Of a stretch of DNA of 64,000 nt, positions 5,789 through 36,622 are shown one piece after another. Each line of letters starts with the position of its first letter. Within the stretch, counting starts at the first letter, position 1. Where the stretch lies: contig JAUZNZ010000003.1 in assembly GCA_030706735.1 (NCBI GenBank), positions 124,001 to 188,000 of the forward strand. Direction: 5' to 3'. The position numbers and the translations under genes are program-made. This stretch comes from Bacteroidota bacterium (GTDB taxonomy: Bacteria > Bacteroidota > Bacteroidia > Chitinophagales > Chitinophagaceae). A model generated the notes under the pieces. It had not been told where the DNA came from. It searched no databases and worked only from the letters and a program-made list of their open reading frames with translations.

Positions 5789-6675
5789 GCACAATAAAAA
5801 ACTATTTAAGCCTGATCAGGTTCTCACACACCATTTTTGCAATGCCCTTTGCATTGATCGGGTTCTTTTTGGGTGCGCGCCCGCTGATCGCCGACGGAGC
5901 CGACGGCCGGGTCATGACAGGCCGGGACATCATCCTGAGGATGGTACTGGTGATCGGTTGCATGATCTTCGCCCGAAGTGCGGCCATGGCATTCAACCGA
6001 TGGCTCGATGTCCGGTTCGACGCCCTGAATCCGCGCACCGCGATCCGCGAGATCCCAGCCGGGATCATTTCGAAAAGCAATGCGTTGCGTTTTGTATTAT
6101 TCAGCTGCGCGGCCTTTATCCTCTGCACCTGGTTCATCAATCCGCTTTGTTTCGGACTTTCCTTCGTGGCGCTGGCGGTGGTATTGGGGTATAGCTATAC
6201 CAAACGATTTACTCCCTTGTGTCATCTTATCCTGGGACTGGGCCTCTCCCTGGCGCCCATCGGCGCTTACCTGGCCGTGACGGGCCATTTCGCTGTATTG
6301 CCCATCCTTTTCTCCCTTACCGTCGTCTTCTGGGTCAGTGGTTTCGATATCATTTATGCGTTGCAGGACGAGGATTTCGACCGGTCCCAGAGTCTCTATT
6401 CAATGCCTGCCTGGCTGGGGAAGGCCAGAGCCCTGCGGGTATCCGAGACCCTGCACGTCCTGAGCACGGTCTGCGTGATCGCGGCCGGCGTTTACGGCGG
6501 TTTCGGATGGTGGTACTGGGCCGGCGTCCTGGTCTTCGGCGGAATGCTGATCTATCAGCACCTGATCGTGCAACCGCATGACCTCAGCCGCGTCAACCTG
6601 GCCTTCATGACGGCAAACGGGATTGCCAGCGTGGTGTTTGCCGCATTCGTCATCGCCGACATCTTCCTGAAGTAA
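5785..6675 (+). CDS. UbiA-family prenyltransferase (MqnP/4-hydroxybenzoate polyprenyltransferase-like)
   Basis: An integral membrane aromatic prenyltransferase, 296 residues with about eight hydrophobic segments. The first Asp-rich motif is NRWLDVRFDALNPRTAIREI, which binds Mg-diphosphate, and the second is DIIYALQDEDFDRSQSLYS. This pair resembles the UbiA-like enzymes of futalosine-type menaquinone synthesis (MqnP) more than MenA, but the acceptor cannot be proved from the sequence. The ATG at 5785 gives a 4-bp overlap with the methyltransferase gene; an ATG 24 nt earlier would overlap further and adds nothing conserved. Role: attaching the polyprenyl tail in quinone synthesis. Confidence 0.85.
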   Translation: MSTIKNYLSLIRFSHTIFAMPFALIGFFLGARPLIADGADGRVMTGRDIILRMVLVIGCMIFARSAAMAFNRWLDVRFDALNPRTAIREIPAGIISKSNALRFVLFSCAAFILCTWFINPLCFGLSFVALAVVLGYSYTKRFTPLCHLILGLGLSLAPIGAYLAVTGHFAVLPILFSLTVVFWVSGFDIIYALQDEDFDRSQSLYSMPAWLGKARALRVSETLHVLSTVCVIAAGVYGGFGWWYWAGVLVFGGMLIYQHLIVQPHDLSRVNLAFMTANGIASVVFAAFVIADIFLK

Positions 6676-6687
6676 CCGCTCACTCTT

Positions 6688-7107
6688 ATGCCACGCATCC
6701 TCTGTATCGATTATGGTCTCAAACGCACCGGCCTGGCCGTTACGGATCCACTGCAGATCATCGCGACGGGATTGACCACCGTCGAGTCGCCCAAACTGAT
6801 CGCCTTTTTGAAAGATTACTTCAAAAAGGAAGAGGTGGAGCTCATCCTGATCGGCGAACCTACGAACTGGGACGACAGCGACACGCACGCCACACCCCTC
6901 GTGCGCGCTATGATCGTCCGGTTGAAAAAAGAATTCCCCGGCATCCCGTTGAAAACCGTCGATGAACGCAATACGTCTAAAATGGCCTCGCGTGCGATGA
7001 TCGATATGGGATTGAGCAGGAAGAAGCGCCGCAATAAGGGACTCGTCGACGAGATCGCGGCGACGATCATGCTGCAGGAATGGCTGACCCGAACCGTGCG
7101 CGAATAG
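6688..7107 (+). CDS. ruvX: Putative pre-16S rRNA nuclease / Holliday junction resolvase RuvX
   Basis: YqgF-family RNase H-fold nuclease of 139 residues, typical for the family. The N-terminal RILCIDYGLKRTGLAVTDPL carries the first catalytic Asp and the GxKrtGlAvtD pattern; LILIGEPTNWDDSD and VDERNTSKMASRAM supply the other acidic motifs, and KRRNKGLVDEIAATIML supplies the last Asp. Members act in 16S rRNA 5'-end maturation or in resolving recombination intermediates. It begins 12 nt after the UbiA stop, as part of the same transcription unit. Confidence 0.92.
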   Translation: MPRILCIDYGLKRTGLAVTDPLQIIATGLTTVESPKLIAFLKDYFKKEEVELILIGEPTNWDDSDTHATPLVRAMIVRLKKEFPGIPLKTVDERNTSKMASRAMIDMGLSRKKRRNKGLVDEIAATIMLQEWLTRTVRE

Positions 7108-13578: not shown

Positions 13579-14136
13579 CTATTTTTTATATTGATGAAAT
13601 AACTTCTTCAAACGCATCAGACACTTATACTTCTGGTTCTTGGCATTGTCCGCGTTCGTATAACCAAAACGGTCCGCAATTTCCATCATGCTCCTCTTTT
13701 GCAGATAGTACGCCTCCAGCAGGCTCCGGCAAGGCTCTCCCAGGTTGTGCAGGCACCGGTCCATTGTCTGGAAGTCCCGGTTCTTCTGTTCGTGCCATTC
13801 CATGTCCTCTTCGACCGGTACCGTCTCTTCCAGGTTGCTCAATTCGGGGGCCATCCGCTGCATCTGACCAAGCCGCTTCAACCACAACCGCCGGCAAACC
13901 GAGTAGAGATAGGTCTTGATCTGGCAATTCAACTCGAAGGTCCCTGACTTCACCTTCTCATAAAGAACGATCATCGCCTCCTGGAATATATCCCTCGCAT
14001 CGTCTGAACCTCCACTGTTGGCCGTGACCAGGGACTGTACCATGCTGAAATGCTGCTTGTAGATGGTCTCCACCGCCTTTCTGTCATTTATCGCCAATCC
14101 TTCCAGTAATTTTTGTTCGTTGGTCTCAGTCCTCAC
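13579..14136 (-). CDS. ECF-type RNA polymerase sigma factor
   Basis: A 185-residue sigma-70 family factor. Region 2 lies around residues 25-95 (DIFQEAMIVLYEKVKSGTFE ... IKTYLYSVCRRLWLKRL) and region 4 around residues 130-180 (LLEAYYLQKRSMMEIADRFG, a helix-turn-helix). The start is a GTG at 14136. The conserved cysteines of a ZAS-type partner are absent from the next gene, which is instead the membrane protease described above. A 205-bp region separates it from the divergent small lipoprotein gene. It probably directs an envelope response regulon; the target promoters are unknown. Confidence 0.88.
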   Translation of the reverse strand: MRTETNEQKLLEGLAINDRKAVETIYKQHFSMVQSLVTANSGGSDDARDIFQEAMIVLYEKVKSGTFELNCQIKTYLYSVCRRLWLKRLGQMQRMAPELSNLEETVPVEEDMEWHEQKNRDFQTMDRCLHNLGEPCRSLLEAYYLQKRSMMEIADRFGYTNADNAKNQKYKCLMRLKKLFHQYKK

Positions 14137-14341: not shown

Positions 14342-14539
14342 ATGAAAAAGCTTTTATTGGTCCTGGCAATCGGCGCTTTCGCAGCATGTAATAACTCGAG
14401 CACCGACTCAAAGGCTTCTGCTGACTCCGCTAAAATGTCCGCCGATTCTTCTAAGATGTCTGCTGATTCTTCTAAGATGGCTATGGATTCTTCCAAGAAG
14501 ATGATGGACACGGTTAAGAAGGACTCGACTAAGAAATAA
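14342..14539 (+). CDS. Small repetitive lipoprotein
   Basis: A 65-residue lipoprotein. MKKLLLVLAIGAFAACNNSS is a signal peptide with a lipobox ending at Cys16. The mature part is almost wholly Ser/Asp/Lys/Met, built on a heptad SADSSKM repeated about four times with small changes (21-bp repeat unit at the DNA level). Such proteins are common in Bacteroidota envelopes but have no known function. The in-frame open stretch upstream of 14342 lacks a signal peptide and is rejected. The gene is divergent from the ECF sigma operon and ends at a strong terminator. Confidence 0.75.
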   Translation: MKKLLLVLAIGAFAACNNSSTDSKASADSAKMSADSSKMSADSSKMAMDSSKKMMDTVKKDSTKK

Positions 14540-14547
14540 GTCTTTTA

Positions 14548-14567
14548 GGCAAGCAATCGTTAGAGGC
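14548..14567 (+). repeat. 20-nt element shared with 36353-36372, copy 1
   Basis: GGCAAGCAATCGTTAGAGGC occurs here just before the lipoprotein terminator and identically, on the minus strand, at 36353-36372. In both places the final AGGC or AGAGGC starts the terminator stem. The flanking bases differ on both sides, so identity is exactly 20 nt. Confidence 0.7.
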
Positions 14568-15774
14568 TATCCGTCTTCAGACGGGTGGCTTTTTTTGTGT
14601 CCGGCAAGAATCCTGTCAACAGGCCCAGCAACGGTAGAAAGCTGCATAGGTGGAACACATATCCGATGCTTGTCCGGTCCGCCAGCTGACCCAGAACGGC
14701 CGAACCCAGCCCCCCCATACCAAAGGCCAGCCCAAAAAAGAGGCCGGCGATCAATCCCACCTTGCCGGGCACCAGCTCCTGCGCGTAAACCAGGATCGCC
14801 GAAAAGGCGGATGCCAGGATCACCCCGATGAATACCGACAACACGCTTGTCCAAAACAGGTTGCCATAAGGCAGCAGCAAAGTAAATGGAGCAACGCCCA
14901 GGATAGAAAACCAGATTACGTATTTCCTTCCCACCCGGTCCCCGACCGGTCCGCCGATCAGCGTGCCGGCAGCGACCGCAAAGAGGAAAAGAAAGAGATG
15001 GAGCTGGGCATTTTGAACGGATAAATGGAATTTATCCATCAGGTAAAAGATATAATAGCTGCTCATGCTGGCCATATAGAAGTATTTCGAAAAGATCAGC
15101 ACCAGCAGGATGCCGAGCGAGACGGCCAGCTTCCTCCGGCCCGGCACGGGCGCCATGAGGGCTCCTCCCGTCCGCGATCGCCTCGGCCGGTTGAGATTCT
15201 TCTTATACCAGCCGCCGATCTTCGCCAATATGGCGATCGCCAGCAGGGCAGCCAGCGAGAACCAAAGGATGTGGGATCTTCCGAACGGAGCGACAATGAG
15301 GGCAGCCAGCAAGGGCCCCAGCGCACTTCCGGCATTCCCGCCGACCTGGAACAGGGATTGGGCCAGGCCCGTGCGCCCTCCGGAGGCCAGGTAAGCTACC
15401 CGCGACGATTCAGGATGGAAAATGGAAGAGCCGACGCCAACCAGCGCGACGGCGACCAGGACGAGCTGAAAGGTGGGCGCAAGCGACAATACGACCAGAC
15501 CCACCAGGGTAAAGCACATCCCCGTCGCCAGGGACCAGGGTTGCGGCCGCCGGTCCGTAAAGAGCCCGACAAAGGGCTGAAGCAGCGAGGCTGTTAATTG
15601 GAAGCAGAAGGTGATCAACCCCAACTGCGCGAAGTTCAAATGCAGCGAATGCTTCAGCAGGGGATAGGTCGACGGGATCAACGACTGGATCGTGTCATTC
15701 AATAAATGGGAAAAGCTGATCGCAAGCAGGATCGGAAAAACGGTCCGGGACTCGATTACCTGTTCTTTGTACAT
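14560..15774 (-). CDS. fsr: MFS efflux transporter, fosmidomycin-resistance (Fsr) type
   Basis: A 404-residue major facilitator with about 12 hydrophobic segments. The opening (LLAISFSHLLNDTIQSLIPS ... YPLLKHSLHLNFAQLGLITF) and the GVGSSIFHPESSRVAYLASG block are typical of the Fsr subfamily of drug exporters. A soluble basic loop sits between the two halves (KKNLNRPRRSRTGG). A TAATTTTG -7 box on the minus strand (15803-15810) lies 28 nt before the ATG. The substrate in this organism is unknown. The 3' end overlaps the terminator of the convergent lipoprotein gene. Confidence 0.85.
   Translation of the reverse strand: MYKEQVIESRTVFPILLAISFSHLLNDTIQSLIPSTYPLLKHSLHLNFAQLGLITFCFQLTASLLQPFVGLFTDRRPQPWSLATGMCFTLVGLVVLSLAPTFQLVLVAVALVGVGSSIFHPESSRVAYLASGGRTGLAQSLFQVGGNAGSALGPLLAALIVAPFGRSHILWFSLAALLAIAILAKIGGWYKKNLNRPRRSRTGGALMAPVPGRRKLAVSLGILLVLIFSKYFYMASMSSYYIFYLMDKFHLSVQNAQLHLFLFLFAVAAGTLIGGPVGDRVGRKYVIWFSILGVAPFTLLLPYGNLFWTSVLSVFIGVILASAFSAILVYAQELVPGKVGLIAGLFFGLAFGMGGLGSAVLGQLADRTSIGYVFHLCSFLPLLGLLTGFLPDTKKATRLKTDSL
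14564..14597 (+). terminator. Intrinsic terminator of the lipoprotein gene
   Basis: AGGCTATCCGTC pairs with GACGGGTGGCT (with G-T wobbles) around a TTCA tetraloop, followed by seven T. It overlaps the last codons of the convergent MFS gene, which ends at 14560. Confidence 0.85.
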
Positions 15775-36321: not shown

Positions 36322-36330
36322 CAATAAAAA

Positions 36331-36356
36331 AGGCCCGCTGTAGAAACAGCCGGCCT
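36331..36356 (-). terminator. Intrinsic terminator hairpin of the candidate small RNA
   Basis: AGGCCGGCTGT and ACAGCGGGCCT pair with one mismatch around a TTCT loop on the minus strand and are followed by six T. On the plus strand no T-run follows, so it does not obviously serve the cytochrome gene that ends at 36321. Confidence 0.75.
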
Positions 36357-36372
36357 CTAACGATTGCTTGCC
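36353..36372 (-). repeat. 20-nt element shared with 14548-14567, copy 2
   Basis: The minus strand reads GGCAAGCAATCGTTAGAGGC, identical to 14548-14567. Both copies lie directly 5' of, and run into, an intrinsic terminator stem. Confidence 0.7.
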
Positions 36373-36622
36373 ATATGAAAAATTCTTATTTGCTGGGACA
36401 AATATAAACCGTAACCCGGATCACCCGACAACAACTTAACGTTAATTCTATTATCCCAAACCCCGGAAAATAAAGACTAAAGCCGCTCTGGCAGCCTGTT
36501 CCACGAAAATTTCACCATGAAGGCCAACGTCTTTTTGCCGCTCATCCAAATTGTACTTCTATTAACAAAAAATTAGCCATTTTTGATATACGAAATAACA
36601 CGTAGATCAAATTTTGGTGCTT

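Follow-up and report, generated by a model that had tools for sequence, protein, structure and literature searches.

An element directly 5' of intrinsic terminators in the Chitinophagaceae as the probable seed of small RNAs directed at SusC transporter mRNAs

The 20-nucleotide (nt) element that occurs twice in the window, as we call the whole 64,000-nt stretch of DNA analyzed here, is probably the 3' seed of paralogous trans-acting small RNAs (sRNAs) in the Chitinophagaceae that lower particular SusC/RagA transporters; we place the probability of this reading at about 0.72. Sequence comparisons established that genomes carry several loci, in three settings, where a conserved stretch, (U)UUUUCAUAUGGCAAGCAAUCGUUAG, is linked to an intrinsic terminator, and that this stretch is complementary to the start-codon region of the mRNAs of a subset of SusC/RagA outer-membrane transporters. 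Since the element fits the start of nutrient-import messages, it probably turns them down, and we infer that it would do so by translational repression of SusC through blocked initiation.

A search of the window located the exact 20-mer at 14548-14567 on the forward strand and at 36353-36372 on the reverse strand. These are its only copies in the window even when three mismatches are allowed, and 100 dinucleotide shuffles of the window gave a mean of 0.00 matches at the same tolerance, which bears out the original prediction that such an identity exceeds chance. As had also been predicted, the hairpin stem of both copies begins within the element (AGAGGC...) and is followed by a T-run. The forward copy (RNA model E = 2.8e-10), which is without the CAUAU part described below, lies in the 3' untranslated region (3'UTR) of an open frame at 14342..14539 (+). 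This frame would encode a small lipoprotein-like protein of 65 residues that begins MKKLLLVLAIGAFAACNN, is rich in Lys, Asp and Ser, and has no Pfam match. The terminator at 14562..14596 (+) has a 14-pair stem, a 4-base loop and a T-run, and this copy lacks its own promoter box. Divergent from the lipoprotein gene, at 13579-14136 (-), is a gene for a sigma-70 region 2 protein.

The reverse-strand copy belongs to a predicted stand-alone sRNA of about 68 nt at 36326..36394 (-) (RNA model E = 5.4e-16), both ends of which are estimates from the promoter box and the T-run. Its putative promoter has the -7 box TATATTTG at 36399..36406 (-), a match to TAnnTTTG assigned from its sequence and from the enrichment of this box in the family. 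The extended element TTTTTCATATGGCAAGCAATCGTTAGAGGC, the proposed seed, spans 36353..36382 (-), and the terminator at 36326..36358 (-) carries the apex TGTTTCTACA found in many stand-alone members. In the 69-nt fold predicted for this RNA, most of the core AAGCAAUCGUU is free and the CAUAUGGC part is paired with the 5' leader. A TonB-dependent receptor gene lies divergent from the predicted sRNA gene at a distance of about 230 nt. The original prediction may thus be refined in one respect, in that the window copies appear to differ in class: the one at 14548 is of the 3'UTR kind, and the one at 36372 would be a stand-alone gene.

The whole genome, a 5.05 Mb assembly of 100 contigs, contains the literal 20-mer only at the two exact sites, with three more sites at two to three mismatches. 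By comparison, its first 15 bases, the core GGCAAGCAATCGTTA, have four exact copies (two in the window, one each on contigs C13 and C79), and a hairpin and T-run directly follow all four. Three of the four share TTTTTCATATGGCAAGCAATCGTTA, with a longer T-run in one, as well as the terminator apex. The conserved unit reaches 5' to (U)UUUUCAUAUGGCAAGCAAUCGUUAGAGG, with the copy at 14548 lacking the CAUAU part. We consequently rejected the literal 20-mer as the unit, the conservation being that of the core and its 5' extension. The contrary outcome foreseen in the original prediction, two copies only or copies without terminators, therefore holds only for the literal 20-mer, whose count did remain at two; for the core every exact copy stands before a terminator. 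At two mismatches this genome has seven near-matches, four of them with no terminator after them and the other three in or beside genes. Further matches of the RNA model here, with E of 0.012 or higher, were rejected by eye.

The core was matched with at most one mismatch in 24 of 24 genomes of the genus, and an exact scan with CATATGGCAAGCAATCGTTA, one genome per species, returned at least 120 stretches. The 80 titles among the matches listed were named Chitinophagaceae or loosely labelled Bacteroidetes bins, the loose labels including one Flavobacterium, one Sphingobacteriales and one Sphingobacteriia. The original prediction had proposed a check in relatives for a hairpin and T-run after each copy, and these were present after 183 of 185 distinct copies, among which those from the species scan had been chosen by the 20-mer regardless of what follows it. 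A covariance model of element plus terminator was built from 26 of 37 diverse copies, the two copies without a terminator having been excluded beforehand. It found the element in 8 of 11 listed Chitinophagaceae genomes including this one, with four matches here and two to six in each of the seven others, the weakest of these being uncertain; it found the element in none of five listed genomes from another family of the order. When 296 genomes of the phylum were searched, two weak matches in other families were judged false by eye, as was the candidate member L280. A comparison of 23 members identified by the model outside this genome showed 95-100% identity at each of the positions GCAAGCAATCG and variable flanks. 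In Niabella defluvii (L149) four sRNA units stand in tandem over about 1.3 kb (5816-7064, minus strand). No Rfam 15 family scored above its gathering threshold in the window or in 17 related loci, and permissive scans gave only tRNA and chance-level rows. Among the open-access papers listed for small RNAs of Chitinophagaceae or Bacteroidota and for susC, none appears to describe the element. The element appears to be the conserved tail of a previously undescribed small-RNA family of the Chitinophagaceae.

Two alternatives bear directly on this conservation, and both seem very improbable to us. The element could be a DNA operator, LacI-like and with GCAATCGTT, or a mobile repeat. Its copies are dispersed, and AACGATTGC words are found upstream of some susC genes as well; the upstream regions of three susC genes of this genome (L207, L209, L210) contain repeated words like GGGAACGATTGC(G/A)TA, which are perhaps a LacI-type operator sharing letters with the complement of the element. 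A constant orientation toward the terminator argues against an operator or repeat, as do flanks and hairpins that vary among copies with no shared insertion ends seen. The second alternative is a mini reading frame, ATG GCA AGC AAT CGT TAG (MASNR), and in three copies of this genome the ATG and a stop codon, TAG in two and TAA in one, are intact. However, both are kept in only 18 of the 27 members examined, four members have ATA in place of the ATG, and the ATG is also absent from the lipoprotein copy in the window. We rejected this frame because its ATG and stop are poorly kept among the 27 members.

For 170 members the upstream sequence extends over 500 nt and allowed the genomic setting to be classified: stand-alone in 136, after a lipoprotein-like gene in 21, after tRNA-Cys in 5 and after another open frame in 8. 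TAnnTTTG is given as the Bacteroidota -7 box, the sigma-ABfr consensus, in the sections of PMC7366714 used here. It occurs 30-170 nt upstream in 76/136 stand-alone members, 0/21 lipoprotein members, 2/5 tRNA members and 3/8 of the others. Within 300 nt upstream, the box is found on the sense strand in 81 of 161 members, versus 29 on the antisense strand and 26 with the box reversed; sense matches are most frequent 40-140 nt upstream of the element. We infer from this that stand-alone members may be transcribed as discrete small RNAs. In the tRNA-Cys class (L051, L055, L070, L076, L139) the element and terminator begin 19-37 nt after the tRNA gene, a spacing that suggests co-transcription or an RNA derived from the tRNA trailer.

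Some of the RNAs contain further copies or partners of the element. In 19 of 161 members the motif GTTAGAGG is present again 54-77 nt upstream, with none in the antisense and reversed controls, and two or three core-like words GCAAGCAATCGTTAGAG can be seen by eye toward the 5' part of L034, L040, L262, L263, L266 and L267. The LhrC family of Listeria likewise consists of multicopy sRNAs in which a short seed is repeated within one RNA; the resemblance is one of design only, the phylum and the seed being different. In a search 20-80 nt upstream, the word GCTTGC, which is able to pair with the GCAAGC of the element, was found at 30-60 nt in 17/161 members (for example L140, L117, L155, L175, L152 and L164), while reversed or permuted words occurred 0-2 times. 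It sits within an apparent hairpin with varying outer stems, and the outer stem seems by eye to have been rebuilt with different letters in L140, L155 and L175. GCTTGC is a possible internal mock target or pseudoknot, and members that bear it may represent a masked form of the seed.

The potentially pairing GCTTGC would also suit an element that acts in cis at the terminator, in termination, antitermination or 3'-end processing, with no trans targets. Such a role would accommodate the fixed place of the element directly 5' of terminators and the fact that the genes upstream (lipoprotein, tRNA-Cys) are unrelated. Nevertheless, copies are few per genome, most members are short units of which over half have a promoter box, and the complementarity to SusC described next would be unexplained. 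A purely cis-acting role is accordingly a possibility to which we give little weight.

The target idea arose because three of the seven near-matches in this genome are antisense to the starts of genes for secreted proteins, two of which are SusC. It therefore came from two genes of this genome and was then tested on all 28 usable SusC genes, out of 29 over the family cut-off (the gene on contig C78, with its 5' end missing, was dropped). In the main test the gapped duplex energy of the extended element UUUUUCAUAUGGCAAGCAAUCGUUAG over positions -35..+35 was compared with that of 100 dinucleotide-shuffled elements. The SusC starts of this genome gave 10/28 genes at p<=0.05 and 5/28 at p<=0.01. 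The corresponding numbers were 34/808 and 8/808 for ordinary genes and 14/187 and 4/187 for signal-peptide-like genes; the difference between SusC and the latter is significant by Fisher's test (1.7e-4). When the tested interval was moved, the SusC counts were 4/28 and 1/28 upstream and 0/28 and 0/28 downstream. SusC genes from the genomes of five relatives without the RNA gave 2/29 and 0/29 (29 of 30 were used, L415 being dropped). An earlier ungapped test of SusC 5' regions was weaker, with 5/28 at p<0.05 and 2/28 at p<0.01, against 3/28 and 1/28 on the reverse strand, 0/12 for other TonB proteins and 2/60 for random pieces of the window, one of these two being the antisense of the element itself. 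A global target test over 828 ordinary genes showed no enrichment.

The evidence on SusC comes mainly from one genus. In 33 genomes of this genus an exact pattern of the antisense core with a Lys/Arg flank had 14 matches; 9 lie 6-9 nt past an ATG, and 8 of these 9 are of SusC type by their N-termini (one by eye only). In 119 genomes of the class, none of the 13 matches in other families fell 6-9 nt after an ATG. A similar pattern in 147 genomes of the family gave 27 matches versus 3 for a reversed control. Among the 26 matches in the other genomes, 6 are located 3-12 nt past the ATG of a frame of more than 100 residues and only 1 of these 6 is of SusC type, so the picture outside the genus is mixed. 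SusC homologues found by protein query, whatever their DNA sequence, had complementary starts at p<0.05 in 20 of 26 parsed cases (the query gene included), and more distant homologues in 17 of 39; left out of these counts were 4 of 30 loci, which were unparsed, and 1 of 40 stretches (L407), which was aimed wrongly. In other genera, 0 of 3 parsed SusC-like starts were significant.

Codon usage at the SusC starts was examined in 65 SusC genes of the genus, ranked by protein similarity to a site-bearing SusC that is itself included; some of the start codons were set by rule of thumb and may be wrong. An Arg-Leu-Leu near the start is found in 31 of the 65, which use CGA in 27, TTG in 26 and CTT in 27 cases, compared with background frequencies of 10.8%, 9.8% and 22.6%, respectively. 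These genes share ancestry and the counts are therefore not independent. The SusC codons CGA-TTG-CTT appear to have been fixed to match the element.

The predicted pairing takes two registers, one over codons 3-7 (e.g. L216, +6..+20) and one across the AUG (L211, L368). In the latter register the predicted partner of UUUUUCAUAU is AUAUGAAAA(A), and that of the GCAAGCAAUCG part is the leader; this register would explain the conservation of CAUAU. The sequence TAACGATTGTTTGCC, which is the complement of the element with one G-U, is also seen before other genes (L049, L071, L078); in L071 and L078 a terminator-like hairpin follows it, a possible sponge or attenuator.

Of the three roles suggested in the original prediction, that of an sRNA-family 3' module is well supported by family-wide conservation directly 5' of terminators together with promoter boxes at sRNA distance, and that of a seed region by the complementarity to SusC translation starts under several controls. 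The third role, a protein-binding tag, may hold in addition. If the element were instead a tag for a protein, for example one of small RRM type, the RNAs would be sponges or stability modules and their fit to SusC would be secondary. The repetition of the sense motif within some RNAs agrees with a tag, as do the five RRM_1 matches in this genome, four of which have loci (L438-L441; contigs C61, C13, C41 and C90), and the binding of FopS by RbpB in Bacteroides as described in the sections of PMC11697453 used here. A tag leaves unexplained the codon-level constraint in SusC starts and the confinement of the enrichment to start codons and to RNA-bearing genomes, and we regard it as unlikely, though the least so of the competing explanations. 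The RRM_1 proteins are candidate RNA-binding partners.

In the mechanism that we propose for the trans-acting sRNAs, the RNA would be transcribed at a length of roughly 65-180 nt or be cut from a 3'UTR or tRNA trailer. Perhaps together with a small RRM protein, it would pair with SusC mRNAs, either across the AUG or over codons 3-7, and the pairing would block ribosome entry and so lower particular nutrient transporters. The SusC predicted to be regulated are those with AACGATTGCTTGC at the start. A broader version is tentative, and we would sooner doubt than accept it. It holds that one anti-start seed, Chitinophagaceae-wide, is carried on three unrelated kinds of transcript; because these are its own genes, the tail of an envelope lipoprotein mRNA and the tRNA-Cys trailer, envelope state and tRNA output would both feed transporter repression. 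The seed would in turn have fixed the SusC signal-peptide codons, and one subclass would carry its own mock target (GCUUGC) that masks the seed.

The closest known system is FopS, a family of paralogous sRNAs that acts with RbpB in Bacteroides thetaiotaomicron and has been deposited in Rfam (PMC11697453). Compared with FopS as presented in the sections of that paper drawn on here, the present family is similar in having several paralogs per genome (four in this one), in length (about 65-70 nt predicted for the window's stand-alone copy), and in a single-stranded seed followed by an intrinsic terminator, although here the core is predicted mostly unpaired and its neighboring part paired. One FopS is derived from a 3'UTR, as is the lipoprotein class here. 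The target class, the start region of susC mRNAs, is also the same, here by complementarity and in one genus only, and small RRM proteins are encoded in this genome as RbpB is the partner of FopS. In contrast to that account of FopS, the seed of the Chitinophagaceae family lies immediately next to the terminator, with further occurrences close to the 5' end in some members, there are tRNA-Cys-linked and conserved lipoprotein-linked classes, and the family occurs in Chitinophagaceae rather than Bacteroidaceae. A cmscan of the four members of this genome with flanks returned no FopS row at E<=10, on the assumption that FopS is present in the Rfam copy used. As no Rfam model matched, there is no sign of homology to FopS. 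GibS of B. thetaiotaomicron is likewise a trans-encoded Bacteroidota sRNA with a conserved single-stranded seed against translation initiation regions; as described in the sections of PMC7366714 used here, it differs in consisting of one gene, with two seeds located toward the 5' part, and in its targets. No sequence relation between GibS and the element family was detected. These comparisons are best read as pointing to a family of trans-acting sRNAs that resembles FopS in design, has no detected homology to it, and would repress SusC translation.

Control of SusC transporters by small RNAs in Bacteroidota has been described from gut Bacteroides with FopS, in the sections of PMC11697453 used here. 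If our reading is true, the Chitinophagaceae would have a second family, with no detected homology to the first but alike in design and in predicted target class, and this would suggest susC starts as a recurrent target of riboregulation in the phylum. The analysis yields a ready list of RNAs, seeds and targets. The family would also provide, if this holds, a case of signal-peptide codons that are held fixed at the RNA level.
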